NCBI RefSeq assembly: GCF_009730915.1
Contig: NC_052474.1
Span: forward strand, 12,683,501-12,747,500
From: Dioscorea cayenensis subsp. rotundata
Lineage: Eukaryota > Streptophyta > Magnoliopsida > Dioscoreales > Dioscoreaceae
DNA length: 64,000 bases
Reading direction: 5' to 3'
This document shows positions 13,768 through 62,430 of the stretch, piece by piece; the stretch's first letter is position 1; each line of letters opens with the position of its first letter. The position numbers and the translations under genes were made by a program. The notes beneath the pieces are model-generated. The model made no database searches and was not told where the DNA came from. It was given only the letters and a program-made list of their open reading frames with translations.

Positions 13768-13768
13768 G

Positions 13769-31678: not shown

Positions 31679-31890
31679 CCTCAATGAGCTGCTCATTGAG
31701 GCCGTGAGAAAAATCCAGAAACTTTTAACTAAACTATACGGCCTTAATGAGCTGCTCATTGAGGCCGTCAAGCCCATCCCGAAAATTTAAACTAAGCGTT
31801 ACGGCCTCAATGAGCTGCTCATTGAGGCCATCAAGAAAATTCAGAAACTTTTGGTTGCTTTATACAGCCTCAATTAGCTGCTCATTGAGG
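31679..31890 (+). repeat. Four 63-bp tandem repeats, each with a 23-bp palindrome (element D)
   Basis: Palindromes start at 31679, 31742, 31805 and 31868, exactly 63 bp apart. Each has arms CCTCAATGAG and CTCATTGAGG around CTG; copies 2 and 4 carry one change. The interspersed 40 bp is also repeated (a GAAACTTTT phrase). The same palindrome type occurs three times in this element's LTRs (24299-24440; 35388-35520). Confidence 0.88.
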
Positions 31891-32412
31891 CCGTATGGAC
31901 TCTTATTTTTCATGTGAATGTTGCCAACTTGTCTCTCTCTTCACTCTCCTTCTTCTCCAACCGAGCCCTACCTTCCATGATCTATCTCTCCATGGCCGAA
32001 CCTCACTAAATATTGTTCTAAATCATCTCCTCATCTCCTTGGGTAGTAGATCTAGTGTTTGTCTTCACACTCCACTCAAGTGTTTTCAAATTTTTGTTGG
32101 TAAGAAGCTTGTTGTGATGAAATTTTTCTTTTCTTTTCTTCTTGCTTTCTTGATCCTTTGTGTGGATTGTTTCAAGCTTTTAGCTTGTATTGTGTGGTAT
32201 GAACATCATGTCTTTGAATTATCTCGAATTTATGTACAAATATTTTTTGAATTCATGATGAGGGGAAGCTCTTGCAAATAGTGTCCATACGGGCTTCGTT
32301 TGCCTATATGGATCCTATTCACTTCAATTTCTTCATGTTTTATCCATTTTTATGCCACATTATGCATTCTCTTGGATTCCTTTCATTCTTATTTGAATTT
32401 TTATTGATGTAG
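31891..32412 (+). other. T/C-rich spacer before the env-like ORF of element D, acceptor-like 3' end
   Basis: A 128-aa hydrophobic ORF at 31895-32281 has no counterpart in the other elements, so I treat it as chance in pyrimidine-rich sequence. The stretch ends TTTTTATTGATGTAG (AG at 32411-32412) two bases before the env-like ATG, consistent with a 3' splice site. Confidence 0.5.
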
Positions 32413-32414
32413 GA

Positions 32415-35052: not shown

Positions 35053-35092
35053 TTTGCTTGGGGACAAGCAAATGCTTAGGTGTGGGGATATT
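35053..35092 (+). promoter_or_regulatory. Hairpin and polypurine tract at the 3' LTR of element D
   Basis: Perfect stem TTTGCTTG (35053-35060) and CAAGCAAA (35065-35072), loop GGGA, then TTAGGTGTGGGGATATT against the LTR start. Confidence 0.8.
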
Positions 35093-36626: not shown

Positions 36627-37281
36627 AATATCGGGCAAGAAAAGCTTCTACCATCTCCGCCCACGTAGTGATCGATGCGCAAGGTGATGAATGCAGCCCT
36701 CAACTTGATAGCATCATATGTAACACCATTAATCTTGAGCATGTCGCACACCTCCAAGAAGTTCTCTATGTGATTGTTTGAATCCTCATCGGCCAAACCA
36801 TTAAACTGTGATGACTGCTATAACATCTGGATGAAGCCTGGCTTGAGCTCAAAATTCTGAGCCATGATCGGTGGCCGCATAATACTAGACTGCGTGCCAA
36901 GAACTGCAGGTTTGGCATAATCTGAGAGTGTCCTTTACTGCTCATTCTATTTTGCCATATTATCAGACCCTTCAACTTCTATTTTAGCTTGATTAGACTA
37001 TTTTTTGCATAGGTTCTTTTCCCTTTCTATAAATTCTTCGTCCAATGTCCGAATCTTCTTCTTCAATGGTGCAGGTCTGGCATAACCAATGCCCAATGTC
37101 CGGATCTTCGTCCAAGAACTGCAGGTCTGGCATAACCTTTGGCTGTAACCAAAGAAAGGAAAACAAATCAAAATGATCGAAGAATAAGAAAGTCTGAGAT
37201 AGAACAAGTGATGAATAGCTAAAATAGCAAAGTGCAAAGTGTTTCCAAAATGCTTATTCCTCAACAATGGTGCCCAAAACT
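36627..37281 (-). pseudogene. Element C gag N-terminal part, leader and primer site
   Basis: Minus strand. Read from 37281: a degenerate primer site (TGGGCACCATTG, about 37259-37276), a leader like those of A and B, then gag with a short repeated block (an AACTGCAGGTCTGGCATAA-type phrase near 36900, 37065 and 37120), then FELKPGFIQML, QFNGLADEDSNNHIENFLEVCDMLKING and a small deletion that removes the LKGRAKQW block. The end of gag at 36632 joins 23904 in frame once element D is removed. Confidence 0.83.
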
Positions 37282-42858: not shown

Positions 42859-43915
42859 TGATGCATGATCCACAAGCGCACGAAGTCGTCAAGTAATACC
42901 TCTCATGCGAGCACGAGAGGGTCGTATTCCCTGGGCCCAAGGATCTACCCTTACTTGAAGGTTTGAACCTAGAGATTTCCTAAATTAGATCAACCCAATG
43001 GTCACATCAATTGACCCCTAATCCGGTATAAGTATTGATACGGAATTTCATCTGATCAAATCCTCATACGATTGCATTAACAAAGTGGGAATTCTGTAAT
43101 TAGAGCCAAAACACAACTTGGTCAAGCCCTAATGTTGGAGGGGTACAAAATACCCGATGGTCATGGCGTATTCATACATGAATCCCTTCCAAACTTTGTT
43201 TGTCTAGTACAACGGCGATGGTCAAGCTACCGAGTACAACTTAGGAGTTGGTTTACAGAGTTCTCATATAAGCAACACATCAAATGCACCAAGAATGAAT
43301 CACAAACACACAACATTTGCAATAAACAAAATTTGATCATCCAAATACACAAGTTCATCCAACACATCAAATGCACCAAGAATGAATCACAAACACACAG
43401 CATGCGGTGACCTTAGGGTCTACTCATCCATGCAAACAAATACAAACAATAGGTCCATGAAAACAATTACAAATCACATAAGAAAACTACCTCAAACAAT
43501 AGAAGTAAGATGACAAGCCAAGTTAGGTGGAAAGCTTCCACGTACGCCACAATCGGGGCGGCTTCCCTCGTCATCTACAAGCTCCCAAAGAAGAGATCGA
43601 TGAAGATCTAGCCAAACCAAGCTTCTCCCTTTGATTCCTCTTCTCCAAAATGTGAGATCTTGCTTCCTATGAACTGGTGGAAGTCGGCTCCAAGAACTCC
43701 CCAAAAAGCTTTCTCCCAAAACATCCCCATTTTGCCCTAGAAATTCAATCCAATATATACCCCGTCAGGTCCATACGGGCTCCATGCGGGTGCATGAAAC
43801 CCGTGAAGCTCACTGCCATTTTGCCCAGAAAACGTGTCGATACTACAATACTCAGCTATAGTGTTTTCTACAGTGTTTCTGCTACAGTACTGAGAGTTGT
43901 GAATTTCCAGCAAAC
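42859..43915 (-). repeat. Element H 3' LTR, missing its 5' part
   Basis: Complement of an LTR ending CATCA. It matches the I and J LTRs in reverse (including the GACCATCGGGTA phrase and CTACAGT octamers at 43850-43890). Similarity stops near 43915, where internal 3' region sequence resumes; the first 300 or so LTR bases and the polypurine tract are gone. A 53-bp phrase with CACATCAAATGCACC is tandemly duplicated at 43275-43400. Confidence 0.82.
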
Positions 43916-44938
43916 ATCAATGGCAACTCAAGAGTCCATTGGTTCACAGTCAATACTTTAGCTTCTAAGTGAATGCATGATAGAGTCCAGAAGAATAAGC
44001 ACTTTTTTTTCTTTTTTTTTTATGTCCGCCTAACGTAGATTGCACAAAATATGTTATAATCTTTCAGAGGGATGCACTTGCTGATTAGGCACAAGAGCCA
44101 CCCAACTTACTCGATTACAATCTACATAAACGGATTCTTGCTAAATTAGCAGAGGAATACTTATATAGACTAATTTTTTCATTTTTCTATTTTTTTTTTG
44201 AATTTTTTTTAAGATAACAAAATTATACATGTCTCTGAGCACCTTCATGCAAAATTTCACTTAAGGATAAACAAAAATGAACAAAAGAACCAAAAGCTCT
44301 TAAAAGACCATTGAGGGAAAAATTTACCACTCTAACACTTTAAATCAAAGCAGTGGGTTAGCTGGGGCAAATAAGGTAGAAGTTCTGTGTCAAAGTTGTG
44401 AAGAAAGCACTAGAGAGAAAACCTGACTTCCTTAAAGCACAAATAACACTACAACTCATTACTATCATTCATTCAAGCTAGGAGGTTCTTAACAATAAAT
44501 CCTAGCTGTCACTGGTGAAGTAAGCATGCAAATAACCCATCCCTACACCTAGAATCGTACATTGCCCTCAATGTACACTAATCAGCAGAACATGGTGTAG
44601 AATTCATAATAATTAAATGAAGCATGAATGGGAAGGGTAAAGAGACTGCCCCATTTGGTTAATGAAGATTGTATAGTGAAAGCGCAGTCAGTGGGCAACA
44701 AGGCTAGCGAAGAGTAAAGAAGATGGGGCACAATCTATGAAAGGTCCTACTAAAATAAGCAAGGCAATCATGACACTTAAGAAAATCAAAGGGGAAGGAA
44801 AACATACATATTAGGCAAAATAAAAGTAACACAAGCCTAGCAGGGAATGAATCCTTGCTAACAAAAGAGGTTCAACTAGCAAGCCACAAAACAATGCGAA
44901 ATACAAAACATAAACTCAAGTTCATAAAAGTCTTGCTC
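43916..44938 (-). other. 3' non-coding region of element H
   Basis: No ORF. Co-linear with 57485-58250 of element J (shared phrases such as GACATGTATAA and GGAGGTTCTTAA). Contains T-rich tracts (44005-44025; 44165-44215) and the secondary hairpin, arms GTACATTG (44557-44564) and CAATGTAC (44569-44576), next to the C-rich complement of the G-tract (44538-44550). Confidence 0.65.
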
Positions 44939-45960
44939 CTAGGCTGGGTGGTGGTCATCAGTAGGTGCAGAAGGTGCCAAGGATGTGGTAGTTCCTGAGG
45001 TGATGCCCGAGGATGAAGAAGACCCACACACGATAGAAAAAACTTCACGCATATCCCTTGCCAACTGTCTAAGTGTCACAGTATTCTCTTGATGTCCTTG
45101 ATGAAGGGAACAAATCTTGCCCTGAATCTCCTGAAGGAGAAGCTCAACTCGAGGTGGTGCATCGTCTGTCTCAGAATTGGACTGTGATGGAGAAGCAGTG
45201 ATGAACTCACATATGACTGAGTACCGGATAACGGCATATGTGTCACCACGTTTCTCCACCATCGCTGTGGAAACATAGTAGCCATCCCCAAGGGTGAAGA
45301 TCCACCAACAATGTGCATGTCCCGGGTGTGCTCGATCAAACCCATACCTCAAATCATACGTGTAATATACGTTCCAGTGAAAATAGATCCAAGGCGCGTG
45401 TAAGTACCCTGATGAACAAACAACTCGGCAAAGAGGTGACCAAGGTGGATCAGGTAACACTCAATGTTACTGTATAGCTTGAGTAAGTCGGAGCGTGTGA
45501 TTACCCCAGTGCTATCACCCTAGCCGCCAATGCCTCTACTTAAGAGCGCATGAACATATCGATGCGCGAGATTGTGAAGGCGAGATGCTTTCCTTGACTC
45601 ATTCTTGTGTCGCCCAGAGATTATATTTCAAAACCATGTGTGTGTCATGGTGGCCAGAAAATCTGTAGGAAGATGATGAAATGTGGGTGTGTTCACGAAT
45701 CCTGCATCATACAAGCCCAAGAAACAACCCAATTGTGTGTCACTAATGGTGCGCATTGTCCCAAAGACTTGGAAACTTATCCCGGACGGTCTTACTAACT
45801 CGATTGTGCTTAGGACCTCCAAGGTGAGCTCACGGTAAGCCGGATCATTAATTCAGAAAATTCTGTCCCAACCATACTGTATGGTGGTTGTAGAAAATTG
45901 GTCTAGGGGAAACTTATCCCGGACGTGGAGCTTCCGAAAATTTACAAATGAAGGAAAAAC
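44939..45960 (-). pseudogene. Element H env-like ORF, broken
   Basis: Minus strand. From about 45960: a WDRIF block with a stop, ELTLEVLSTIELV, FQVFGTMRTISDTQLGCFLGLYDAGF (ORF 45628-45822), stop, then RYVHALLSRGIGG with a stop near 45525, STGVITRSDLLKLYS, HLGHLFAELFVHQGTYTRLGSIFTGTYITRMIRGMGLIEHT (into 45345), then a frameshift near 45265 into a C-terminal segment ending at 44939 (LLLQEIQGKICSLHQGHQENTVTL, Ser/Thr-rich tail). Same order of motifs as in A and D. Confidence 0.78.
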
Positions 45961-46856
45961 TCTAAGAATTAAGTACACACCACATCACAACAACCATATA
46001 TGGCATTCACACTTGAAGAGCAAGAGAAACCCCCAACAAAACCCAAGTTTTGAGCAAAACCTTTAATTAGGGCTTGAAAGCTTAGAGTGAAGAGATCTGG
46101 TGAAAAAGATGGTAAAACTCCGATTAAATCCCAAGATTGAGTTTGAAAAATGGAGGAGAGGAGATTAGAGAAAAAAAAACCAAGAAAAATGGTGGATAAA
46201 TGAGGTAGAGTGAAAGAGAAATGAGACAAAGCAAGGTGGAGAAGATGGAAGATGGTGAAGAAAGAGAAAAGGGGAAAAACACCCGTTTAATGGGCTGCGC
46301 AACCTATGCGGGGCGCATGCGGGCGCATGGTTCCTGCAAGGTCTGGAAAGCCTGGCCCGTGAGGCTCACGGGCGCTATGTGGGCGCATGGTGCCGGTGAG
46401 GATTTCCGGCCGCGTGCGTTGCACGAGGCTGGGAACCTCACCGACGGTCTCGCAGGCGCATGTTGCCCATGAGTCCCTCGGGGCCACCGGGTTGTGGTCC
46501 TCATTGGGGGTGGGGGGGTCTCTTGCGCCGCCATGACGCTCGCAAGGCCCTGAAACCAGCCACAAGTGTCCATACGGGCCATATACAGCCCGTAAGGACC
46601 TGGAAAATCAAAAAATTGGCATGGTTCCTCTTGCAAACTCAATAAAATATGAATTACAACTTCTTAAATGTCGAAATAACAATAAAACACATCTAAACAA
46701 TACTAATTCAAGGCCAAAGACAAGCGAGGAAGCCTTAGCATTACTTGAGCACAACAACAAAAATACGAGCAACTCACAAACGTAAGCATTCAACCACAAC
46801 AAAGAAACTAAGCAACTAAAAGAAATATGAAAATTTAAAGACAATGAATTTAAAGA
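45961..46856 (-). repeat. Spacer of element H with GC-rich palindromes (46310-46610)
   Basis: Non-coding. 46310-46610 is GC-rich and carries inverted pairs of the CATACGGGC...GCCCGTA type (best near 46568-46596) and GGGCGCATG repeats. On the minus strand a CCCATTAAACGGG TATA-like box and a C/T-rich leader follow, as in I and J. Overlapping ORFs on both strands reflect GC content only. Confidence 0.6.
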
Positions 46857-46923
46857 CTTGGGTTACCTCCCAAGAAGCGCTTATTTACCGTCATTAGCTT
46901 GATGCACCTTCATTCTTACCTCA
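46857..46923 (-). promoter_or_regulatory. Splice-donor-like site and CTTGGG/CCCAAG hairpin after ORF1 (element H)
   Basis: Complement of TGAG|GTAAGAA at 46915-46923 and a perfect hairpin (arms CTTGGG and CCCAAG, loop GTTACC on the plus strand) at 46857-46874. Confidence 0.58.
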
Positions 46924-47091
46924 TGGTGGATCAAATGGTGGGGACTTACCTCCAAGTCCAAGAGAAGTGCTCCAAGATGGGAAACTCATCAAGAGGCATG
47001 AAAAGACATGGAATTTACCCTTCCCCTCGAAGAATAGTTGATCGATTTCCCATGGTGGTGATAGTGTGCAATTTATCCCCAATTTCTGTTT

Positions 47092-49250
47092 CTAGTCCCT
47101 CTTACGCCAAATTTTCCTTGTGGTTGATTTCTTTTTATTGTTCTGCCATGGAAATGTCCCCACATAGCCTACATGCTTTACTTGTGTGGGAGGTGGGTTG
47201 TTCTCTTTGCACTCATTGCTATCCATTCCTTCCAAGAATTCATCCAAGTGGTTAATCGCCAAGACCTCCTGCACACAATCAGTAATAATCATATCAGTTT
47301 CATCAGTAAAATAGAGGGAATCATCATGGTCCAAGGTGTGTTTCATAGCCGTGGGGAGTGTAATAATGACTTCCTCATCCCCCACTCTCAATGTCATTCT
47401 AGCCCCCTTTATATCAATGAGGGCTCTGGCGGTGTTAAGAAATGGTCGCCCGAGGATCAATGGGACTTCAACATCATCATCCACATCAATAATCACAAAA
47501 TCCACCTGGATAATGAGGTTGTCAACTCTAACTATCACATCCTCAACAACCCCACAGAGTTTCTTTATAGACCGGTCTGCAAGTTGTATTGTCATCCTTG
47601 TAGGCCTCATGTCTTCCAATCCCAGCTTCAAAAATAGCTTGTAGGGCATCACATTGATGCTAGCCCCAGAATCTGCCAAGGCCTTTTCTTTCATGCCTTC
47701 CCCAATCACACATGGAATAATGAAACTCCCGGGGTCACTCAACTTCTTAAGGAGTTTCCTCTGAATCATCGCAGAGCAGTTCTGTGGCAATGCAACTGTT
47801 TCTAATTCCTCTAATTTTCCCTTGTTAGTCAGCAGGTCTTTCATAAACTTTGCATACTTGGGCATTTGAATCAAGGCTTCAACAAGAGGGACATTTATGT
47901 GTAACTGCTTGAATACATTGATGAATTTCTTGAATTGAGCCTCCTCTTTATCTTGCTTCAATATAGCTAGATAGGGAATGTCCAGCTTGTACTCAGGTAC
48001 CCTGGGTGTTGGTAGTTGAAGGGTTTCTTCATCTTGTTTTTCCTATCTTCCTTCAATTACACTCTCATATGGCTTAGGGTCTTCCTGTATGGCTACCCTA
48101 TCATTTTTAGTGCTTGAGCCCTCCTCGGCTCATGCTTCAACCTATTTCCCACTGCTGAGAGTGACGGCTTTCAAATGCTCCCTTAGATTATTTTCAGTGT
48201 TACTAGGTAAGCTACCCGGTAGGTGCTCTGAATTTGCCCTAGCAAGTTGCCCAACCTGGTTTTCCAATAATTGAATGGAGGCATGAACTTTCCTTAAAAC
48301 AGTGTTCACTTCAGCGAATTGATAGTTGATGTTCACAAATTTTGCTTCGGTAATGATCATAAATCTCACTAACACATCTTTAGTGGTGAACTTCATCTCA
48401 TGCTACTGTGGTGATTGATGTGGATGTCCTTATGGCTGCGGGGGCCAATGTTGCTGTTGTTGACCCCATGAAAAATTTGGGTTATTCCTCAACCCTTGAT
48501 TATACGTGTTTCCATAGGGATTCACTGGGCCTCTGGGGCCTCCCCCAACATAATCAACTGTCTCGACTGGGGCATCTAAGGATATTGAGATTAGACACTG
48601 AACAGTAGCATTCCCTACCCCACAGGTCTCAGAAGACAAAACTGCTCCAGAATTTGAGCTTGTACCCAACACAAACTGATCAAATCTCTTTGTTAGGGCC
48701 TCAACCTTGCCGGCTAGCACAGTGTTGTCATTTATCTCATAAATTCCAGCTGCCGTAGGGGGTTTCTGTCTAGTTGACCAATGGCATTCATTACTTGGCA
48801 TGTTTTCAATCAAAATTTCAGCATCTTCAGGGGTTTTATTTCTCAATGACCCTCCCACCAGCATCGATGAGTTGTCTAGTTGCATAATTCAAGCCATTGC
48901 AAAGCATCTGGATCCTCATCTACATGGAGAAGCCATGATGGGGACACTTGTGTAGGAGATCCTTGAATCTCTCATGTGCTTCAAAAATTGTCTCGGAGTC
49001 CCCTTGCGGAAATGCAGAAATCTCTTGCCTCAGTCTAGCGGCTTTGCTTAGTGGGAAATACCTTGCAAGAAATTTGTCCACCATTTCCTTCCAAATGGTG
49101 ATCGACCCCGGAGCCAATGAAGTGAGCCATCTATATGTAGCTCCCCTTAGACTAAATGGGAATAATCTCAATCTTATCGCATCATCAGACACCGAGTTAA
49201 TCTTGAAGGTGGAACAAATTTGGAGGAAGCGAGACAAATGAGCGTGCACC
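47092..49250 (-). pseudogene. Element H gag-protease, broken gag and open protease
   Basis: Minus strand. Capsid from about 49250 (HLSRFLQICSTFKINSVSDDAIRLRLFPFSLRGATYRW; FLARYFPLSKAARL; ETIFEAHERFKDLLHKCPHHGF), stop near 48920, NECHWSTRQKPPTAAGIYEIND (48885-48430, knuckle with CGVGNATVQC, His replaced by Asn). Then ORF 48142-48396 (FTTKDVLVRFMIITEAKF; LENQVGQLARANSEHLPGSLPSNTE), a damaged linker, and 47961-47092 open for 289 codons with ADSGASINVMPY, ILGRPFLNTARALID and a lysine-rich end (NNKKKSTTRKIWRKRD). The N-terminal part of gag and most of the primer site are deleted: the LTR end lies only a few bases from capsid. Confidence 0.9.
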
Positions 49251-49257
49251 AAAAACT

Positions 49258-49446
49258 TGATGCACCATCTGCAAGCGCACGTAGTCATCAAGTAATACCT
49301 CTCGTGCAAGCATGAGAGGGTCATATTCCCTGGCCCAAGGATCTACCGTTACTTCCTCTTCATGTGTTGTCTAGATGAAAGATTTGAAGGGTTTCTCTAA
49401 TCTGCTAATTAAAATGAAAGAACTACAAGTGGAGTCTAAAACAAGG
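49258..49446 (-). repeat. Element H 5' LTR remnant
   Basis: First 189 bp of the reversed LTR (TGATGCACCATC...), cut at 49446 by the start of element I. A short primer-site remnant (complement TGGTGC) lies at 49246-49257. Confidence 0.8.
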
Positions 49447-50947
49447 TGATAAACGCCTAAATGTATGTATTTTATATGTATTAATCTTGTATCATTTGTG
49501 AATATGTTAACGAATTGATGCCTGTTTTATGTCTAAATTGGTTATTTCGGTGTTGCAGGTCTTAAATGAGTTGAACGACGCTGAAAAATGTAAATCGGAT
49601 GAATTTGACACCAAAAACGGCAATTTTGGGGGTCCCAGCACTGTAGCGGCACTGTAGCGGTATTGTAGCAGGTCATTGTTCTTGCTGCGGGCATTTGGCT
49701 GTGAGTTTCACGGGCTCCATGCGCCCGTATGGGTGCCCGTGAGGTTTGCTGGAAATTCTCAATACTCAGTTACTGTAGCAAAAATGTTGTAGCAAAAACA
49801 CTGTAGCTGAGTACTGTAACACCGGCATGTTTTCTGGGCATTTGGCTGTGAGCTTCAAGGGCTCCATGCTCCCGCATAGATGCCTGCATGGACTGACGGG
49901 ATATAAATGAAACCGATTTTTCTAGGGCAAGGAGAGAAGTTTTTGGGAGAGTTCTTGGAGCCGATTTTCACCAGTCTTTAGGAGGCAAGATCACACATTT
50001 TGGAGAAGGGAAATCAAAGGGAGAAGCTCAGTTTTTGCTAGATCTTCATCGATCTCTTCTTTGGGAGTTTGTAGACGACGAGGGAAGCCGCCCCCATCGC
50101 GGCGTCCGTGGAAGCATTTCCACCTAGCTTGGCTTGTCTTCCTACTTCTCTTGTTTGAGGGAGTTTTCTTATGCCATTTGTAGTTGTTTTCATGGACTTG
50201 TTGCTTGTATTTGTTTGCATGGACGAGTAGACCCCAAGGTCACTGGATGCCGGTGAACCTTGGGGTGAACTTGTGTATTTGGATGATTTAATTTTGTCTA
50301 TTGCAATTGTTGTGTATTTGTGATTCATTCTTGGTGCATTTGATGTGTTGCTTACATGAGAACTCTGTAAACCAACTGCTAGGTTATACTTGGTAGCGTG
50401 ACCATCACCCTTGTACTAGACACACCAAGTTTGGAAGGATTCATGTATGAATACTCCATGACCATCGGGTATTCTGTACCCCTCCCCCATTAGGGCTAGA
50501 CCAAGTTGTGTTCCGGCCCTAATTAGGGATTTCCCCACTTGTTAATGCAATCGTATGAGGATTTGATCAGAAGAATTCTGTGTCAATACTTATACCGGAT
50601 TAGGGGTTAATTGCCGTGACCATCGGGTTGATCTAATTTAGGAAATCTCTAGGTCCAAACCTTCAATTGCATGACATTCTTAGCATCCTTTGCACTTTAG
50701 TAGCCCCTAGGGAATCCGCATCCGTGACCATTTCTTTCCCATGATTTTATACCCCTAACTTATCATAGACTCCATTTGTAGTTCTTTTATTTCAAGTAAT
50801 AGATTAGAGAAACCCTTCGAATCATTCGGCTAGACAATACGCAAAGAGGAAGTAAGAGTAGATTCTTGGGCCCAGGGAATACGACCCTCTCGTACTCGCA
50901 CGAGGGGTATTACTTGATGACTCCGTGCACTTGCGGATCGTTCATCA
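49447..50947 (+). repeat. Element I 5' LTR
   Basis: TGATAAACGC...CGTTCATCA, 1501 bp. Contains a dense octamer cluster at 49640-49680 and 49770-49825 (CACTGTAGC, ATTGTAGCA, ACTGTAGCA), CACGGGC...GCCCGTG palindromes at 49705-49755 and 49855-49900, a GGGATATAAATG TATA-like box near 49897, then a purine-rich leader. Best preserved LTR of this family in the window. Confidence 0.9.
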
Positions 50948-50953
50948 AGTTTT

Positions 50954-50971
50954 TGGCGCCGTTGCCTTGGA
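50954..50971 (+). other. Primer-binding site of element I (tRNA-Asp type)
   Basis: TGGCGCCGTTGCC matches the tRNA-Asp complement for 13 bases; the last five (TTGGA) deviate. Confidence 0.82.
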
Positions 50972-51152
50972 CCCACAAGGAATACTCGGAAAACTTAGAG
51001 TTTATTGATTTAGCCATTATTTCTTTAATTCTGTACATTTGTTTCTTTTATTTTGCACTTTTTTTCCTTTTTATTTTATTCAAAATTATTTTCTGCTTTT
51101 AAATAGTTCTTTTTGTTTAACATTTTCTAGTTATTCATTATCCACTACAATC

Positions 51153-51677
51153 ATGTTTTCAGCCAGCAGTTGTGGTGATGCTTCTTGTCTGTATATTCCA
51201 TACTCGAATTCCCTACTTGATTCTCTAGTGGCACTTGAACCAGAAGGGATGATTAGTACGCACATTCTTGATAGTTGTAGATGGTCTGAGCATTACAGTG
51301 TGGCTAGAACTGTACCCTTGGAAGAACTTGATGTGCAGGACCTATTCACGCATTATATGAAGACCAACAATGTGTTGCCAATAGTTGAGCTTACTCCACT
51401 TATCCTCCCCTCCATCCCCATCGCTGAGGAGGAAAGGAACAGGTCTGATAACTCTGGTGTACTAGTTCATCGAGATGAAGAGGAAATAGATCTCATGGGG
51501 GGAAGTGACTCAGGGTCATCAGGGTGTGAGATTCACGCTATAGAAGAGTGCATGGATAGTGGTAGCTCCACGGATGATGAGTATAGAGGATTCGAAGATT
51601 TTGATTTTGGGAAGTTTGGGGGATTAAAATCATCAATTGAGGAACCCCCGGATCTAGAACTGAAGCCGCTACCCTAA
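51153..51677 (+). CDS. Acidic 174-aa ORF in the gag position of element I, continuous with the pol linker
   Basis: ATG 51153 to stop 51675-51677. I reject the longer start at 51039, which lies in T-rich leader. N-terminal part: MFSASSCGDASCLYIPYSN, then VPLEELDVQDLFTHYMKT. From residue about 90 it is strongly acidic (EEERNRSDNSG; HRDEEEIDLMGGSDSGSSG; DDEYRGFEDFDFGKFGG). The last dozen residues (EEPPDLELKPLP) are the linker that precedes RT in Athila pol, the same as DEPQELELKTLP in element A. So this ORF is probably the N-terminus of a pol polyprotein that starts with its own ATG, without gag or protease; the stop after KPLP may be a late mutation. No known domain recognised. Confidence 0.6.
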   Translation: MFSASSCGDASCLYIPYSNSLLDSLVALEPEGMISTHILDSCRWSEHYSVARTVPLEELDVQDLFTHYMKTNNVLPIVELTPLILPSIPIAEEERNRSDNSGVLVHRDEEEIDLMGGSDSGSSGCEIHAIEECMDSGSSTDDEYRGFEDFDFGKFGGLKSSIEEPPDLELKPLP

Positions 51678-54518
51678 GCAAAAATCCGACCATCTGAGTG
51701 TGTTAAAAAAGCACAAAAAAGCAATTACGTGGAAGATTTCAGATATTAAGGGGATTAGTCCTTCCTTTTGTACACACAAAATTCTCATGGAAGATAATCA
51801 TAGGCCGACAGCTATACCGCAGAGGCGGCTCAACCCTAATATGAAAGAAGTAGTACGCAGCGAGGTGATCAAACTTCTTGATGTCGGCATCATTTACACT
51901 ATCTCCGAGCAGGTGAGTGGGTGAGCCCGTGCAGGTGGTGCCGAAAAAGGGGGATGAGCGAGTGATCACTAATGAAAAAAATGAATTAGTCCCCCACTAG
52001 AACGGTCACAGGTTGGAGGGGTGTACATAGACTACGTAAAACTCAATGATGCTACTAGAAAAGATCATTTCCCTCTACCTTTCATTGACCAAATGCTTGA
52101 ATAACTAGCAGGGCACTCATATTACTCGATTTCTTGGATGGTCTCTCCGGATACTTTCAAATCCCAATTGCCCCGTAAGACCGGGAGAAGACAACTTTCA
52201 CATGCCCTTATGGTACTTTTTGCTTACCGTCAGTATGCCTTTCGGGTCTATGTAACGCCCGACTACCTTCCAGATGATGCATGATAGCCATATTTGATGA
52301 TCTTGTGGAAGATATTATGGAGGTTTTCATGGATGATTTCTCAGTTTTTGGTGATTCTTTTCGGCCTCGCCTCAAAAATCTAGAGCTGGTTTTTAGCCGG
52401 ATGTGAGGAAACCAACTTGGTTCTCGCTGGGGAAAAAGTGTCATTTTATGGTCAAGGATGGCATTGTGCTTGGTCATAGGATATCACAACAAGGAATTGC
52501 GTTGGATAAGGCCAAGGTTTCCACCATCGAGCGACTACCTCCCCAACGCTCGGTGAAAAGCCATTAGGGAGCTTTTTGGGACATGCGAGTTTTTCTGAGA
52601 AGATTCGTCAAGGATTTTTTTCATTGATTGCACGACCACTTACAAAAACTTCTTGAGAAGGACGCTGCATTCAAGTTTGGTGATGAGTGCATGACTGCTT
52701 TTCTTACCCTTAAGAAAAAGCTTGTTGAAGCCCCGATTATTATGTCCCCGATTGGAATTTACCTTTTGAACTCATGTGTGATGCTAGCGACTTTGCGGTG
52801 GGGGCGGTTCTTGGGCAACGTCGGGGGGTCATTTCCACCCTGTTTACTATGCAAGCAAGACATTGAATGATGCTCAGGAGAATTATATGACCACCGAGAA
52901 AGAAATGCTTGCTGTGGTTTTTGCATTTGACAAGTTCCGTTCATATTTAGTGTTATCAAAGGTGATCGTGTTCACAGACCATTCTGCTCTAAAATATCTT
53001 TTGAGCAAACAGGATGCAAAACCTCGTTTGATCCGGTGGGTACTCTTGGTTCAGGAGTTTGACTTAGAGATTAAGGATAAGTGGGGGGCTAAAAATTTGG
53101 CCGCCGACCACCTATCGCGCCTTGTAATCCCATTGGAGAGCACCAAGGATAGAAAGGAGATAAATGATGGTTTTCCTGATGAGCAGTTGTTTAGCATTCA
53201 AATAATGAGAGAAGAAGAAATTCCATGGTTCGACTGATTTTGCAAACTATCTTGTCATGAGGGACACGTCTCGATCGGGTCGACTTATCAACAACGGAAG
53301 AAGTTCTACTCTGATATAAAATATTACTTATGGGAAGATCCCTATTTGTTTAGAACTTGCGCCGACCAAGTGGTGAGGAGATGTGTATCTCATTCGGAAG
53401 GGTATTCTATCTTGGAGCATTGCCATGCCGGGTCCACTGGGGGCATTACGATGCCAACCGAACGACTCGGAAAAATTCTAGATGCGAGTTTTCTATTGGT
53501 CATCCATCTTTCGGGGACGCACAAAAAGTTTGTTCAATGTTGCGATAGGTGTCGCTGGACTGGAAACATTTCAAGGAGAGATGAGATGCCACAAACACGG
53601 ACCCAAGCTTGTGAGGTGTTCGATGTGTGGGGGATTGATTTCATGGGACCCTTCCCTAGTTCCCGTGGTAATCAGTTTATTCTGGTAGCTATAGATTATG
53701 TTTCTAAATGGGTTGAAGCACAGGCATCCCCCACAAGTGACGCACGAGTGGTAGTAAAATTTTTAAAAAAACTATTCTCCAGATTTGGTACACCGAGAAC
53801 GATCATCAGCAATAGAGGAACCCACTTTTGTAACTCTCAGTTTGCAAACACCCTGAAGCGATATGGAGTATTCCATAGGGTTGGAACTCTGTATCATTCT
53901 CAAACTAGTGGTCAAGTTGAAGTCGCTAACCGCGAATTGAAACGGATTTTGGAGAAGTCCGTAAGTCAGCACAGGAAGGATTGGGCAGATCATCTGGATG
54001 ATGCCCTTTGGGCATATCGGACAGCGTATAAGACACCTCTTGGAGCGACCCCTTATAGGCTAGTCTACGGGAAAGCATGCCATTTACCCGTCGAATTGGA
54101 ACATAAAGCATACTGGCCTATTAAGCAACTGAATTTTGATCCTCAGCTAATCGGTCATAAGCGGAAGTTCCAACTAAGTGAGTTGGATGAATAGCGGACT
54201 ATGGCATATGAAAATTCCTTGCTTTACAAGAAAAGGATCAAGGAGTATCATGACCGACACATTAAACATGGGAAACACTTCAAGGAAGGGGACCAGGTTC
54301 TTCTCTTCAATTTGAGGTTACGACTCTTCCCGGGAAGTTAAAAATCGAGATGGCACGGACCCTTCACAGTTTCACAAGTCTTTCCCCATGGCGCCATCGA
54401 GATAACTCATCCGGAGAAAGGTACATTTAAGGTTAACGGTCAACGATTGAAGCCATACCTTTCTTGGAGCACTTCTCTTGGGCTTGGAGGTAAGTCCCCA
54501 CCATTTGATCCACCTTGA
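51678..54518 (+). pseudogene. Element I pol: reverse transcriptase, RNase H and integrase, broken by many small indels
   Basis: RT starts about 51700 (KKHKKAITWKISDIKGISPSFCTHKILMED; NMKEVVRSEVIKLLDVGIIY), followed by several one-base frame changes between 51900 and 52860. The catalytic FMDDF box is kept near 52326-52340. RNase H: MCDAS near 52770, then 52863-53237 ([38 protein letters not shown]). Integrase 53346-54194: zinc-finger Cys pair [20 protein letters not shown], then ISNRGTHF in place of ISDRGTHF, so the second catalytic Asp is Asn, then [11 protein letters not shown]-terminus to the stop at 54516-54518 ([24 protein letters not shown]), with a stop at 54192 and a frame change near 54340. 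Probably inactive. Confidence 0.92.
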
Positions 54519-54581
54519 GGTAAGAAAAAGGTACGTTGAGCTAATGACGTTGAACAAGCGCTTCTTGGGAGGCAACCCAAG
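54519..54581 (+). promoter_or_regulatory. Splice-donor-like site and CTTGGG/CCCAAG hairpin after pol (element I)
   Basis: TTGAG|GTAAGAA overlaps the pol stop (cut after 54519). A second donor-like GGAG|GTAAGTC lies 33 bases upstream, inside the integrase C-terminus, and is also kept in element H. Hairpin 54564-54581 is perfect. Confidence 0.6.
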
Positions 54582-55854
54582 TTTTTAAATTCGTCGTCTT
54601 TAAATTTTCGTATTTCTTTTAGTTGCTTAGTTTCTATATTGTGGTTGAATGCTTATGTTTGTGAGTTTTTCATATTTTTCTTTTGTTGATGTTTTTGTGC
54701 TCAACTCATGCTTTGGTTTGCTCGCTTGTATTTGGCCTTAAATTAGTATTGTTTAGTTGTGTTTCATTGTCATCCCGGCGCTTAAATGGTTCTAATTCAT
54801 ATTTTATTAAGTGTGCAAGAGGAACCATGCCAATTTTTCAATTTTTCCAGGTCCATACGGGCTGTATACGGCCCGTATGGATATTTGTGGCATGTTCCAA
54901 GGCCTTGTGGGCATCATTGCGGCCGCAGGAGACCCTTCGCGAGAAGTATTTTTCATGGGCTGTGGGTCTCACGGGCGCCATGCGCCCGCGAGGCCGCCCG
55001 TGAGGCTCTCGCCCTCACGCTGCGCGCGCGGGCTAAAAAGCTCACGGGCGCCATGGCCCCGCATGGGACCCGCATGGGCTGGGCTGCCCATTTAAGGGGT
55101 GTTCTTCCCCTTTCTCTCTCTACTCCAACCTCCATCTTCTCTTCTTAAGTTTTCTCTCATTTCTCTTTCATTCTACATCATTTCTCCACCATTTTCCTTG
55201 GGTTTTTCTTCTTTAATCCCCTCTCCTCCATCTTGCCAACTCAACCTTGGAATTTAATCGGAATTTAACCATCTTTTTCATGGGATCTCTTCCTTCCAAA
55301 CTTTCAAGCCCTAATTCAAGGTCTTGTCTCAAACTTGACTTTTGTTGTGTTCTTATCTTATCTTTGAAGCTTGTATCACATATTTGGATGTTGTGATGTG
55401 GTGTATGCTTAATTCTTCGAGTTTTTCCTTCATTTGTAAATTTTGGGAAACTCCATGTCTAGGAGAAACTCTTATAAAAAATTTTTCACGAGTTACTGTA
55501 GCAAAGGCTGAATTTTTACTAGGCTTGTTTTACTTTTATTTTGACTATTATGCATGTTTTCCTTCTCCTTGATTTTCTTACGTGTCGTGATCGCCTTACT
55601 TATTTTTGTAGGACTTCTCACGGATTGTTGCCCCACCTCCTTTGCTCTTTGCTGACTTTGTTGCCCATTGACTGTGCTTTCACTGACCAATCTTCATGAA
55701 CCAATTGGGGCAGTCTCTTTACCCTTCCTTTTCATGCTTCATTTCTTTATTATGGATTTTACACCATATTCTGCTGATTAATGTACATTGAGGGCAATGT
55801 ACGATTCTAGGTGTGGGGACGGGTTATTTGCATGCTTAAGTCACCCATGATAGC
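54582..55854 (+). other. 3' region of element I: palindromes, acceptor-like site, secondary hairpin, no env-like ORF
   Basis: An 11-bp inverted repeat TCCATACGGGC / GCCCGTATGGA at 54852-54881 with an 8-base spacer, then a GC-rich block to 55085 (GCGCCATGCGCCCGCG), CCCATTTAAGGGG and a long C/T-rich stretch (55100-55300), as in the LTR. A pyrimidine tract with TTTTTGTAG at 55603-55611 occupies the place where env-like ORFs start, but the text that follows goes straight to 3' non-coding sequence. Hairpin arms GTACATTG (55783-55790) and CAATGTAC (55795-55802), then TAGGTGTGGGGACGGG (55808-55823). Confidence 0.7.
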
Positions 55855-57204
55855 TGATGAGCGATCCGCAAGTGCACGGAGTCATCAAGTAATACCCCTC
55901 GTGCGAGCACGAGAGGGTCGTATTCCCTGGGCCCAAGAATCTACTCTTACTTCCTCTTTGCGTATTGTCTAGCCGAATGATTCGAAGGGTTTCTCTAATC
56001 TATTACTTGAAATAAAAGAACTACAAATGGAGTCTATGATAAGGTAGGGGTATAAAATCAGGGGAAAGAAATGGTCACGGATGCGGATTCCCTAGGGGCT
56101 ACTAAAGTGCAAAGGATGCTAAGAATGTCATGCAATTGAAGGTTTGGACCTAGAGATTTCCTAAATTAGATTAACCCGATGGTCACGGAAATTAACCCCT
56201 AATCCGGTATAAGTATTGACCCAGAATTTCTTCTGATCAAATCCTCATACGATTGCATTAACAAGTGGGGAAATCCCTAATTAAGGCTGGAACACAACTT
56301 GGTCTAGCCCTAATGGTGGAGGGATACAGAATACCCGATGGTCACGGCGTATTCGTACATGAATCCCTTCCAAACTTGGTGTGTCTAGTACAAGGGCGAT
56401 GGTCACGCTACCAAGTACAACCTAGCAGTTGGTTTACAGAGTTCTCATGTAAGCAACACATCAAATGCACCAAGAATGAATCACAAATACACAACAATTG
56501 CAATAGACAAAAATTAAATCATCCAAATACACAAGTTCGCCCTCAAGGTTCACCAGACATCCGGTGACCTTGGGGTCTACTCAGTCCATGCAATCAAATA
56601 CAAGCAACAAGTCCATGAAAAACAACTACAAATGGCATAAGAAAACTTCCTCAAACAATAGAAGTAGGAAGACAAGCCAAGCTAGGTGGAAATGCTTCCC
56701 ACCGGACGCCTGCTGATGAGGGGCGGCTTCCCTCAGTCGCTCTACAAACTCCCAAAGAAGAGATCGATGAAGATCTAGCCAAAACCGAGCTTCTCCCTTT
56801 GATTTCCCTTCTCCAAAAGCGTGTGATCTTGCCTCCTAAAGACCGGGTGAAAAATCGGCTCCAAGAACTCTCCCAAAAAAACTCCTCCCTTGCCCTAGAA
56901 AAAAATCGGTTTTTATTTATATCCCGATCGGTCCATGCAGGCATCCATGCGGGCGAATGGAGCCCGTGAAGCTGACAGCCAAATGCCCAGAAAACATGCC
57001 GGTGCTACAGTGCTGGGACCCGAAAAATGCCGTTTTTGATGTCGAATTCATCCAATTTGCATTTTTGAGCTACATTCGGCACATTTATGATCTGCAACAC
57101 CAAAAAGAACAAATTTATACTCAAACGGGCATCAATTCATCAAGATATACACAAATAATACAAGATCAATACGTATAAAAATACGTACATTTAGGCGCTT
57201 ATCA
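55855..57204 (-). repeat. Element J 3' LTR
   Basis: 1350 bp, plus-strand text TGATGAGCGATCC...GCGCTTATCA. Very similar to 61049-62430. Between 56690 and 56740 it has several one- or two-base extra bases relative to the other LTR and to element I, which may be damage or assembly error. Confidence 0.9.
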
Positions 57205-57244
57205 AACATCCCCACACCTAAGCGTTTGCTTGTCCCCAAGCAAA
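57205..57244 (-). promoter_or_regulatory. Polypurine tract and hairpin at the 3' LTR of element J
   Basis: Complement of TTAGGTGTGGGGATGTT next to the LTR, with the perfect stem TTTGCTTG (57225-57232) and CAAGCAAA (57237-57244). Confidence 0.8.
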
Positions 57245-59332
57245 CACACATGAAAGAATAGGGGCAAGAAGATAAACGGCTAAATATACAACCTCAAGCT
57301 CAAGTAGTGAAGAACCCCACAGGCACAGATGAAATGAAATCAAGAAAATGAGTTGCACAATAACCAACTCAGTAGAGATAGTCATGAGACCTCTGGAGTG
57401 CTTTCCTCGTGAGTGTGTGTAAATACTTCATCCCTCGCTCTCCCTCTTCATGCCACATTCAATGACTACCGGTGTTAGAAATGTTAAAGACGCCCTCAAT
57501 AACGAGTTAAGAGTCCTTCGGTCCATAGTCAACATTTCAATTTCTAAGTGAATGCATGAAAGAGTTCAAGAGAACACAGATTTTTTTTTTATTTATTTTT
57601 TTTTTTTCCGAGTCCGGCTAACGTAGACTGCACAAAATAACTTATAATCTTTCAGAAGGATGCACATGCTGATTAGGCACAAGAGCCACCCAACCTACTT
57701 AATTCAGGTCTACATAGACGCATTCATGCTAAATTAGCGGAGGAATACTTGACATAGACTCATCTCAATAATACATGTCTCCGGTTTTTACATGTCTCTG
57801 GAGCACTTTCATGCAAAACTTCACTTAGGGATAAAGTAGAATGAACAAAAGAACCAAAAGCTCTTAAAGGACCATTGAGGAATGAATTTACCACTCTAAC
57901 ACTTTAAATCAAAGCAGTGGGTTAGGTGGGGCAAACAAGGTAGAAGTACTGTGTCAAAGTTGCGAAGAAAGCCCTAGAGAGAAAACATGACTTCCTTATA
58001 GCACAAATAACACTACAACTCATTACTATCATTCATTCAAGCCAGGAGGTTCTTAACAATAAATCATAGCTATCATGGGTGACTTAAGCATGCAAATAAC
58101 GCATCCCCACACCTAGAATCGTACATTGCCCTCAATGTACATTAATCAACAGAACATGGTGTAAAAATCGGAATAATTAAATTAAGCATGAAAGGGAAGG
58201 GTAAAGAGACTGCCCCATTTGGTTGATGAAGATTGTGCAATACATGCATGAACAGGGGGGTGGTTCAATTCAATTGTTAAGGGGTGGTGAGAATGAAGCT
58301 CATGTCCTGATAATCCTGCAAATGTCAAAAAAAAAGTATAGTTCATCTCACCAATGAATATGTAGGGAGAACACACAAACAAAAACTCTAAAAACTATCA
58401 AAACAAAGTCCATGCAAGTCATTTGTTCAATCAATGTCATGATGTTTAAATCTCTCTAGTGCAAGTGTTTTCGAGGGGGTTTCAAGGATGCTACAAGTGT
58501 CAAACAAATTCAAGATAAGCAACATTCAAAAAGTTATCAGTAGTACGATCTGAAATTTGGCAAGAATTTCCACAGATTTTGAAGCCCAAAAATTTACAAA
58601 CCATGATAAAAATTTAAATAAATTAAGGATCAACCAACCATACAACATTCCTCACGGTTTAAAGTAAGATATGCATGCACAATCAAGAAGAAGAGGCAAG
58701 GTTGTTCCAAAACAAAAACTAGCGCTTCAAAGCTTGAATCGATGAAGATCGGTGAAATAGATGTAAAACTTCAATTAATCCACAAGATCTAAGTTGGAAG
58801 AGGTAGGAGAGGAGTGAAGAGGAAGAAAAATGAAAAAAAATTGTGAAAGAATGAAAGAAAACGGATGAAAAATGAGTGAGAACAAGGGAGAGAAAGGTGG
58901 CTACTTAAGGCTCGAAATTTCAGCCCGCAAGCCATACGGGCTCCATGCGGGCGCATGGAGCCCGTGAGGATTTCTGTCCTTCTCTAGCCCATGAGGCTGT
59001 AAGCCTCACGGGCGCATGACACTCGTGAGGCCCCTGGGGAGCAGAAAAATGGTCCATACGGGCCGTATACAACCCGTATGGACCTGGAAAAATAAAATTT
59101 TGGCATGGCTCCCATGTAACTTAGAACAAAACTAGTTTACAACATCTATAACACCAAAATATGCATTGAAACACAACCAAACAATGACAAAGCACTAGAT
59201 AAGATTCACAAATATAAGACAAGCATGGATCATTCAAACAAACAAAAATACAAACACAACACAAACACAAGCTATATGAATAAACTCAACAAACATGTAA
59301 AATACGAAAAATGAAACATGAATAATTTGAAA
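57245..59332 (-). other. Non-coding 3' half of element J
   Basis: No env-like ORF. Holds the secondary hairpin (arms GTACATTG 58121-58128 and CAATGTAC 58133-58140) with its C-rich strand at 58103-58117, T-rich tracts at 57571-57608, and a palindrome block 58920-59085. The best pair there is a 12-bp inverted repeat 59051-59062 against 59073-59084 (GGTCCATACGGG and CCCGTATGGACC), 10-base spacer. A small minus-strand ORF at 58182-58382 has no support elsewhere. Confidence 0.65.
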
Positions 59333-59395
59333 CTTGGGTTGCCTCCCAAGAAGCGCTTGTTTTACGTCATTAGCTCGACGTACCTCTTTCTTACC
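59333..59395 (-). promoter_or_regulatory. Splice-donor-like site and CTTGGG/CCCAAG hairpin after the ORF (element J)
   Basis: The ORF stop TAA is followed by TAAG|GTAAGAA (minus strand). Perfect hairpin at 59333-59350. It shows that the J ORF ends in the same sequence context as pol in A and I. Confidence 0.6.
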
Positions 59396-60436
59396 TTAGG
59401 GAGGCTTGAAGACGGTATGTTCATCCCAGCTAGAATTGGCATAAGAACTACCGAAAAAAATGAAACGTACCTTCCGGGATGGTGTCAAGTTGAAAGCCAA
59501 GCATAAGTTACCTTTTGGCCTCCATGGAAAAAGCTTGGGCCGGGAGTTGTGCAATTTAAACTTGGGCGGCTCCTTAGATGGCTTAAGCATCCTCCCCACT
59601 TCTTCTGTGGTCCCGGCAAGAATTCCTTTGAGTAGCCCACCACAAAGTTGCTTGGGCCTCCATGGAAAAAGGTTCGGTCGAGAATTATTCAAAGTTGGTA
59701 TGGGTGGGTCCTTGGACGGTTTCAACCTCCTACCCAAATTTTCTTCCTCGACCAAAGTCAAATTGCCTTGAACTACCCACAAGTATTGTTTGGGCCTCCA
59801 AGGGAACAAGTTTGGTTGAGAACTTGTCAAACTTTGCATAGGTGGATTAATTAGAGGCTTCAACAACTTATCCATAATTTTTCTCTCAACCCTGTTGTGA
59901 TGAACTTCAATGGCCCACAAAGTTTGCTTCGGCCGCCAAGGAAAAATCTTTGGTTTGGAATTGTCCAAGCCTAGCATTGGTGTGTTCAATGATGATCTTA
60001 GCTTAGTACCCACATCTTCGAATACAATTCCCAAAATTTTATTTTTGCACTTGACTAAAATTGATGGATGGATGGAAAAATCTATGTTGAGGCAAGTAGC
60101 ATCTTCAAATGTGGTCGATGGAGTTTCTTCTACTTCCTCACATGTTTCCTTAGCCATGATGCCATCCTCCCCCTTTTCTTCTTCAATTTCCCATTGAGGT
60201 GGAACTTCAACTATTTGCTCAAAAGGTATTGACGCTACATCACTTGCTTCTTCAACCTCCAACACCTCAATATCGGTTTCCACCTCAATTTCACTATTTT
60301 TCTCTTCATTCATTGTACCATTTTCAGATAGGGCATCTATAGTTCGTGGTAACTCGGTCGATATGTTAGAAGAATCAGCAATCATGTTCATCATACTTTG
60401 AAAAGATGGCCGGGCATTAAAAGGTGCAGTATCCAT
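59396..60436 (-). CDS. 346-aa acidic protein with four 46-residue FPWRPK repeats, unknown function
   Basis: Open for 346 codons on the minus strand, MDTAPFNARP to TVFKPP. Residues 41-112 are strongly acidic (VETDIEVLEVEEASDVA; EIEEEKGEDG). From about 145 it has four repeats with FPWRPK at 165-170, 211-216, 257-262 and 303-308, exactly 46 residues apart; units share L-x-NS-x-P-x-LFPWRPKQ-x-LW and a later LKPxxxPP. The end (VFKPP-stop, donor, hairpin) is homologous to the ends of pol in A and I, so the ORF replaced everything between leader and the end of pol. No gag, protease, RT or integrase motif, no signal peptide or membrane span. I do not recognise the family. The gene is intact in a recent-looking element, which argues for function. 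A start farther upstream, in the damaged segment before it, is possible. Confidence 0.75.
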   Translation of the reverse strand: MDTAPFNARPSFQSMMNMIADSSNISTELPRTIDALSENGTMNEEKNSEIEVETDIEVLEVEEASDVASIPFEQIVEVPPQWEIEEEKGEDGIMAKETCEEVEETPSTTFEDATCLNIDFSIHPSILVKCKNKILGIVFEDVGTKLRSSLNTPMLGLDNSKPKIFPWRPKQTLWAIEVHHNRVERKIMDKLLKPLINPPMQSLTSSQPNLFPWRPKQYLWVVQGNLTLVEEENLGRRLKPSKDPPIPTLNNSRPNLFPWRPKQLCGGLLKGILAGTTEEVGRMLKPSKEPPKFKLHNSRPKLFPWRPKGNLCLAFNLTPSRKVRFIFFGSSYANSSWDEHTVFKPP

Positions 60437-61030
60437 GGCTTTAAATTCAGCGATCGCTTTGCATCATGAATCTTGCGAACACATCTTGCGTATTGAATCC
60501 CCATTCATTAAGTGGCTTAGTATGAACGATCTGGAGGATGATAATGCCACGAATCTTGAGGGGAGGGTTCTTGTAGCAATCCCTAGTGAGGGTACTCCCA
60601 TTGTTGAGTATGATCATGTGCCGAAAAGTGCGGGTGTCCTCCCCAATATGGATTATAAACATCGATGTATCTGATTGCTATGGCTTGCTCTCTTGGCATC
60701 CAATTCTTCCATTTGCTTTTCAAGGGCATACATTTTTAGCGCCAATAATCTTTCTTGACAATCCATGGTCGGATCACTTGGTGTGCTCTCATGGCACTTA
60801 ATTCTTCCATCTCATTTTCAAGCGCATACATTTTTGGCCGCTAATAATTTTTTTCTTTCGAAGTCCATGGCCCCGTGTAATAAAAAAAGAATAAAACTAA
60901 CAATAATAAGCTATCAAAAGAAAAGATAAAAAGAAACAAAAATAAATATTTACAAAGATAGATATTTACAACAACAAAGATAAATGACTAGAGCAATAGA
61001 CTACGGGTTTTCCTAGTATTCGTAGTGTCC
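60437..61030 (-). pseudogene. Upstream coding remnant of element J with a duplicated coiled-coil-like segment, plus leader
   Basis: Minus strand. Two copies of an 85-105-bp unit (about 60870-60785 and 60765-60680) each start CCATGGA and encode variants of ERLLALKMYALEKQMEEL followed by A-x-RA; the first copy has a frameshift, the second is followed by a stop near 60660. A further open stretch 60662-60447 contains FNTQDVFARFMMQSD, which resembles the gag block FTTKDVLVRFMIITE of element H, so a trace of gag may survive. It is not clear whether these pieces once formed one ORF with 60436-59396. 60880-61030 is A/T-rich leader. Confidence 0.5.
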
Positions 61031-61048
61031 CGAACGGCGCCAAAAACT
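61031..61048 (-). other. Primer-binding site of element J (tRNA-Asp type)
   Basis: Complement of TGGCGCCGTTCGGGA, about 6 bases from the LTR. The first ten bases match tRNA-Asp; then there is a small deletion. Confidence 0.8.
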
Positions 61049-62430
61049 TGGTGAGCGATCCGCAAGTGCACGGAGTCGTCAAGTAATACCCCTCGTGCGA
61101 GCACGAGCGTCAGTACACCGGGCCCAAGAATCTACTCTTACTTACTCTTTGCGTATTGTCTAGCCGAATGATTCGAAGGGTTTCTCTAATCTATTACTTG
61201 AAATAAAAGAACTACAAATGGAGTCTATGATAAGGTAGGGGTATAAAAATAAGGGGAAAAGAAATGGTCACGGATGCGGATTCCCTAGGGGCTACTAAAA
61301 GTGCAAAGGATGCTAAGAATGTCATGCAATTGAAGGTTTGGACCCTAGAGATTTCCTAAATTAGATCAACCCGATGGTCACGGCAATTAACCCCTAATCC
61401 GGTATAAGTATTGACACGAATTTCTTCCGATCAAATCCTCATACGATTGCATTAACAAGTGAGGAAAATCCCTAATTAGGGCCGGAACACAACTTGGTCT
61501 AGCCCTAATGGTGGAGAGTGCAGAATACCCGATGGTCACGGCGTATTCGTACATGAATCCCTTCCAAACTTGGTGTGTCTAGTACAAGGGCGATGGTCAC
61601 GCTACCAAGTACAACCTAGCGGTTGGTTTTCACGAGTTCTCATGTAAGCAACACATCAAATGCACCAAGAATGAATCACAAATACACAACAATTGCAATA
61701 GACAAAATTAAATCATCCAAATACACAAGTTCACCCCAAGGTTCACCGCATCCGGTGACCTTGGGGTCTACTCGTCCATGCAAACAAATACAAGCAACAA
61801 GTCCATGAAAACAACTACAAATGGCATAAGAAAACTTCCTCAAACAATAGAAGTAGGAAGACAAGCCAAGCTAGGTGGAAATGCTTCCACGGACGCCGTG
61901 ATGGCGGCGGCTTCCCTCGTCGTCTACAAACTCCCAAAGAAGAGATCGATGAAGATCTAGCCAAAAACCGAGCTTCTCCCTTTGATTTGCCTTCTCCAAA
62001 ACGTGTGATCTTGCCTCCTCTGATCGGTGAAAAATCGGCTCCAAGAACTCTCCCAAAAACTCCTCCCGTTCATCGTGAGCGATCGCTACGATGAATGCTC
62101 GACCAAATACCCAGAAAACATGCCGGTTGTGAAATTCCAGCAAACCACACGGGCACCCATGCGGGCGCATGGAGCCCGTGAAGCTCACAGCCAAATGCCC
62201 GCATCATAAATAGTGATCAGCTACAGTAATGCTACAGTGTTGGGACCCCAAAAAATGCCGTTTTCGATGTCGAATTCATCCAATTTGCATTTTTAAGCTA
62301 CATTCGGCACATTTATGATCTGCAACACCAAAAGAACAAATTTATACTCAAACGGGCATCAATTCATCAAGATATACACAAATAATACAAGATCAATACG
62401 TATAAAATACGTACATTTAGGCGTTTATCA
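61049..62430 (-). repeat. Element J 5' LTR
   Basis: 1382 bp, TGGTGAGCGATCC...GCGTTTATCA on the plus strand. Palindrome block 62140-62195 (CACGGGC, GCCCGTG) and octamers near 62215-62240. Matches 55855-57204 except a local rearrangement at 62060-62150. Confidence 0.9.

Follow-up and report, generated by a model that had tools for sequence, protein, structure and literature searches.

Long terminal repeat (LTR) retrotransposons that lack one part of the coding set are known, and the one-sided dependence of a defective element on a complete one is familiar. In cereals, BARE-2, a Copia element that is said to be otherwise near-complete, reportedly relies on BARE-1 in this one-sided way. BARE-2-like elements have a gag coding region that is present and untranslatable, while TR-GAG elements are non-autonomous LTR elements in which gag is the only coding domain. 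In multipartite viruses, the essential genes are distributed over several molecules with common replication signals. A two-way split between retrotransposons would be new. Here, we analyse three elements, H, I and J, and their relatives in a 64,000-nucleotide stretch of Dioscorea cayenensis subsp. rotundata DNA (the window, G000:C4:12683501-12747500) and in the searched assembly of 584 Mb and 2,249 contigs. An initial annotation had suggested that the three could form a multipartite retrotransposon, with independent deletions as the plain alternative.

For Arabidopsis Athila, the sections of one study drawn on here describe multi-copy gag families and gag plus env families without pol, whose open reading frames (ORFs) are under purifying selection (Marco and Marin 2008, PMC2410132). 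According to the same sections, these families are thought to use the pol of other families, and gag is also present in every Athila element that has pol (PMC2410132). In the titles and abstracts of the open-licence literature, we found no lineage in which pol families without gag have pol-less gag families as counterparts, nor a J type under the same signals as pol or gag elements.

The elements studied here fall into three cassette types, which have common boundaries and shared signals and occur as separate insertions. All appear to follow one plan, i.e., LTR, primer site, leader, one cassette, a shared donor/hairpin segment, 3' region and LTR. The first cassette type is gag-protease (elements H, A, F, K and L), and the second reverse transcriptase (RT), RNaseH and integrase with another N-terminal domain replacing gag-protease (I and the locus L036; D and M are also without gag-protease). 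The third is a gag-tail protein with FPWRPK repeats (J).

The window is dense with nested LTR elements, and ORFs, Pfam matches and homology bear out the coordinates and payloads first given for H, I and J. H (42859-49438, minus strand) has gag-protease and an ORF3-like region, no RT-integrase and a damaged 5' end. I (49447-55854, plus strand) has an acidic domain and RT-RNaseH-integrase and no gag-protease. J (55855-62430, minus strand) has a repeat protein only, between LTRs that are 91.8% identical. The full 5' LTR of I sits inside the 5' LTR of H, and I is without a 3' LTR, since its 3' region is interrupted at 55855 by the start of J. At the two window flanks of J no target-site duplication (TSD) was seen by eye. 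The LTRs of this family start with TGATAAACGCC, or with the variant TGATAAGCGCC at the start of the J 3' LTR, and end with TCATCA or TCACCA. The LTRs of I and J are 91-93% identical, while the LTR of H is 78-84% identical to these, so the earlier wording of closely similar LTRs suits I and J better than H.

I belongs to a class with many copies. On the plus strand, its 5' LTR (49447-50947) is followed by a putative primer-binding site read by eye (50948-50966), the 173-aa acidic domain (51156-51674), an RT region with a broken frame, assigned by homology to L036 (51682-52860), and RNaseH (52863-53237) and integrase (rve, 53346-54194), both with Pfam matches. With leader and acidic ORF as the query, 158 candidates came up, of which 40 were scored as matches; 20 of these lie at 92-100% and the other 20 at 84-88%. 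With a longer query (LTR, acidic ORF and pol), 35 of 9,105 candidates were scored, and 26 of these rows reach the pol of I. Cross-comparison of the two sets of matches places the acidic ORF directly upstream of pol in 23 of the 26 rows (window copy included) and about 3 kb upstream in two; the remaining row is a fragment of about 345 bp and was not classified.

L036 is a complete I-type copy, with LTRs at 164-1648 and 6456-7951 that are 95.7% identical. Its acidic domain is in frame with the RT linker, followed by RT, RNaseH and integrase, with the frames broken in places. The RT match to RVT_1 (E 2.2e-6, 28 bits) is under the cut-off of 29.6. Both L036 and the window I thus have the order RT-RNaseH-integrase, by which Ty3/gypsy pol is recognised. 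No gag or protease homology was found in the internal regions of I and L036, except for a short LTR-end match, so neither has the untranslatable gag region of a BARE-2-like element; L036 also gave no match to ORF3. The initial annotation was right about the payload of I, and the acidic ORF as a separate gene is rejected in view of the frame in L036. The early end of the acidic ORF in the window copy is due to the lack of about 60-70 bp that other copies have. A derivation of the acidic domain from the gag tail was tested and is unsupported (profile probability 0.1% against gag tails and 0.9% against the J set), and with the 173-aa domain alone no homolog was found among proteins of similar size.

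Two further elements have pol without gag-protease. D has RT-RNaseH-integrase at 10999-13440 on the plus strand, with no gag-protease upstream. A different short ORF (10287-10748) lies between its LTR end and RT and aligns poorly with the acidic domain of I. M (110.4-112.8 kb; coordinates of K, L and M continue the window numbering into the 60 kb to its right) has RT-RNaseH-integrase without any N-terminal domain, and its RT begins 78 bp after the LTR.

J is found at 40 genomic places, scored out of 1,179 first-look candidates, with 87-100% identity in its ORF (the search gave 41 rows, one of which is a short piece of a copy already counted). On the minus strand of the window, it consists of the 5' LTR (61049-62430), the ORF of 346 aa with FPWRPK repeats (59396-60436), the donor/hairpin segment (59300-59399), which adjoins the stop codon, and the 3' LTR (55855-57204). 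Twenty loci, selected by the J ORF, were fetched, and all of them are homologous from the leader, or a point close behind it, across the ORF and on into the 3' region, some with insertions. LTR pairs, 84.0-98.9% identical, are present in 14 of the 20, and four of these 14 have a 5-bp TSD. I and J are multi-copy types with common boundaries, not one-off deletions.

The ORF is the sole payload of J, as first described, but its length there was that of a part: in three of the fetched loci (L009, L019 and L023) it has 488 aa, of which the 346 aa are the 3' part. It has no Pfam match and no capsid, protease or pol match. Profile comparison relates J to gag tails at 98.5%. The idea that the J protein is new throughout was rejected, as its N-terminal part is a gag tail.

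Of the 14 loci with an LTR pair, four match the central part of the window J LTR (310-740) and ten show no match to it at all, some of the pairs being partial. That J internal regions stand between two LTR variants suggests LTR exchange. At G000:C1:16252654-16255816, an LTR 93% identical to that of I (query 1-1602) is followed by the J ORF, and this locus reads as a J payload behind an I-like LTR.

The gag-protease class is represented by H only as a damaged copy. H has, on the minus strand, a 3' LTR (42859-43925; the end is fixed at 42859, the start is matched to 43925 and not fixed), an env-like ORF of 173 aa without a Pfam match (44939-45460; ORF3-like homology at 45412-45903), a donor/hairpin segment (46857-46936), an aspartyl protease ORF with a Pfam match (47092-47961), interrupted gag ORFs (48430-49324, with Retrotrans_gag in 48920-49324) and, beside I, which cuts it, the last ~200 bp of the 5' LTR (49249-49438). 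The primer-site-like sequence runs straight into gag. The content first assigned to H, gag-protease and an env-like ORF without RT-integrase, therefore stands, but for a copy whose 5' LTR is reduced and whose leader and gag start are lost.

Four more elements, within the window or next to it, have the same plan. Element A has a gag tail and protease at 1-871 (minus strand) and extends to the left of the window (locus L029), where protease is followed by ORF3 with no pol between. Element F (23897-36627, plus strand, TSD AATAT) has gag, protease and ORF3, no pol, and a gag tail-protease ORF of 482 aa (29729-31177). Elements L (LTRs 98710-100523 and 106555-108370, 95.4% identical) and K (LTRs 112789-114444 and 120955-122596, 92.8% identical) also have gag-protease-ORF3 and no pol. 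A script found no TSD for K, L or L036; an LTR pair with a short TSD is nevertheless present in F, as in the J loci above. F and K are colinear over the internal region at 88-89%, and L and A over 4.7 kb at 67%, in both cases across the protease-ORF3 junction. A pol-less gag, with or without an env-like ORF, is thus common to several insertions (A, F, K, L and H), and it differs from a gag-only element in that protease and ORF3 are also present. Discrete, multi-copy types with shared endpoints, which the initial annotation had set as its own test, are found for I and J, and for the gag-protease class in F/K and L/A rather than in the family of H. For the gag-protease of F and K, the ratio of nonsynonymous to synonymous substitution rates (dN/dS) is 0.248, a value from one pair in which K has one in-frame stop and for which there is no paired noncoding control.

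Three side observations concern this class. A match to the F 3' LTR that is split in the F 5' LTR points to an insert of about 2.9 kb at 25263-28164. The F-K alignment breaks at short tandem repeats (31669-31894) that lie between protease and ORF3 in F. Element G (gag-protease, 41129-42858) is cut exactly at the H 3' LTR end, 42859, and may or may not have carried pol.

All three types carry the donor/hairpin segment of about 80 bp, as first claimed. It lies downstream of the coding cassette in each of the ten aligned places, namely two pol elements, five gag-protease elements, J and two N copies; in I it lies at 54503-54587 and in D at 13759-13836, both on the plus strand. In the segment, GGTAAG (GCTAAG in element L) is followed by CTTGGGAGGCAACCCAAG, which varies little. 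The putative functions of the segment, splice donor and hairpin, are read from the sequence. From this segment onward, D (pol) and L (gag-protease) are alike, in pieces at 68-79%, while their cassettes differ; a second LTR family (D/L) has the same split of pol versus gag-protease.

We take the elements to be Athila-like from their plan, presumably that of Athila, with a long LTR and ORF3 after pol. The ORF3 of D matches PF20167 weakly (E 0.0055, 17 bits, cut-off 45), and two other ORF3s have no Pfam match.

Pol and protease do not occur together in the DNA counted, 318,862 bases made up of 131 kb contiguous, the 20 J loci and L036. It contains seven pol, nine protease and nine gag clusters; the seven pol clusters represent five elements or fragments, because D and M give two clusters each. 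There is no protease within 6 kb upstream on the same strand of any pol cluster, and no pol within 6 kb downstream of any protease cluster. Gag is found 861-974 bp upstream of six of the nine proteases. The J loci were picked for J and have little weight in this count. The search proposed at the outset, for a copy with gag, protease and pol together, found none in these 319 kb or among the top-scored matches.

Homologs in other sequence sources exist for both the J protein and the pol ORF. The J protein has eight, the six best 49-63% identical; in P0001, the N-terminal part is gag tail, matching F at 49% over 112 aa. In P0015 (434 aa, from a metagenome source), a J-like N-terminus, read by eye, is joined directly to RT, so the J N-terminal domain also occurs on pol. 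The 309-aa ORF of L036 matched 777 proteins; among the 120 matches listed, most cover less than half of the query, and in two, P0010 (50% over 220 aa) and P0017 (47% over 190 aa), the match starts in the acidic domain and extends into RT. P0016 is a protease-RT-linker ORF.

Within the genome, dN/dS is 0.56-0.68 for J and 0.56-0.76 for the acidic ORF of I, and 0.59-0.94 for noncoding controls, the J control counting single-difference codons only, unlike the other runs. The copies in this genome give no sign of purifying selection on J that can be told from noncoding stretches (0.64 against 0.59-0.94). Near-fixed differences between two groups fall on codon positions 7/7/16 in the acidic ORF (one-sided p 0.019) and 12/13/21 in J (p 0.055); both signals are weak.

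We suggest, with moderate confidence, that these are Athila-like Ty3/gypsy elements with exchangeable cassettes that probably complement each other reciprocally in trans. The gag-protease elements would supply particles and the pol elements enzymes, since a pol without gag must presumably use the particles of another element, and vice versa. Shared LTR ends, primer site and 3' region would let one machinery copy all types, with the RNAs of every type packaged and primed via the shared signals. The two coding types would then complement each other, while J rides along or helps. Its gag-tail segment could bind gag and so bring J into particles, and the acidic domain of I could likewise bring in pol, although its tested relation to gag is unsupported. 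Several points weigh against this proposal. Movement in trans and RNA packaging are surmised from sequence. H is damaged, and most copies have stops or frameshifts. The dN/dS values of J and the acidic ORF lie inside the control range or barely below it. The absence of complete copies covers 319 kb and the top-scored matches, not the genome, and only five of the nine proteases (A, F, H, K and L) are fully assessable, because at the other four (42.5 kb, 108.4 kb, L016 and L036) an insertion or the end of the stretch interrupts the sequence. With its RT starting so close to the LTR, M may have arisen by deletion. The assessable proteases and M are what keep our confidence moderate.

It can be speculated, more tentatively, that the system is obligately split like a multipartite virus. 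No complete master would then be left, and gag-protease(-ORF3) elements and pol elements with an N-terminal domain would persist only by mutual complementation via the LTR, primer and donor/hairpin signals that they have in common. This would apply to two LTR families or more; J would add a third protein, derived from the gag tail, and the N-terminal domain would be the ticket of pol into particles, replacing a gag-pol fusion. Slightly less likely still, a complete gag-protease-pol master exists or recently existed, and the H, I and J types are non-autonomous parasites without mutual dependence. The limited DNA covered leaves room for such a master, the wider lineage has complete protease-RT ORFs in other sources (P0016), and Arabidopsis Athila, in the sections cited, has gag-carrying pol elements beside pol-less families (PMC2410132). 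However, none was seen in the counted bases, and a complete copy would share most of the LTR-acidic-pol query, while none of the 26 pol rows resembles one by the acidic-ORF test (23 contiguous, two distant, one fragment). That H, I and J are unrelated accidents, each due to its own internal deletion in a family that also has complete members, we consider very improbable, even though H is damaged and the window I and M carry deletions. Copies of I, and of J, share boundaries at many loci, which is why independent deletions are rejected for both; the J and acidic domains at full length are not remnants of a gag-protease-pol ORF, and the pol-less plan is common to F/K and L/A. The plain alternative of the initial annotation is thus largely refuted for I and J, but not for the family of H itself. 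Its multipartite reading holds as regards separate multi-copy cassette types with shared signals, while the packaging of three RNAs is conjectural and J may be a passenger. There is a little less than an even chance that J is a gag-tail derivative that uses the signals and whose protein is useless to the others, which is compatible with reciprocal complementation. The N-terminal gag tail, the lack of capsid, protease and pol matches and the dN/dS inseparable from controls fit a passenger, but open J-type ORFs in other sources and the RT fusion of P0015 speak for more.

If reciprocal complementation is true, LTR retrotransposons can evolve a division of labour, and these elements offer a natural system for how pol enters particles without a gag-pol fusion. 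Classification surveys based on pol only would then miss the gag half of such a lineage. Pol-less gag (and gag plus env) families of Athila are already published; for multi-copy gag-less pol partners, with an N-terminal domain also found elsewhere, we found no published account in the literature covered.

Compared with BARE-2, the likeness would be that an element without functional gag depends on the gag of another; here, however, another domain replaces gag-protease, which is absent, and the candidate gag donors observed lack pol. TR-GAG elements likewise have gag without pol, while the gag class here also has protease and ORF3, and pol-only counterparts in the same lineage. As in multipartite viruses, separate parts share signals, but here the parts are separate chromosomal elements and their interdependence is surmised. 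The non-autonomous Athila elements of Arabidopsis, as described in the sections cited (PMC2410132), have the same plan as H, A, F, K and L; in contrast, the pol elements examined here are without gag-protease, and a third type, J, shares the signals.

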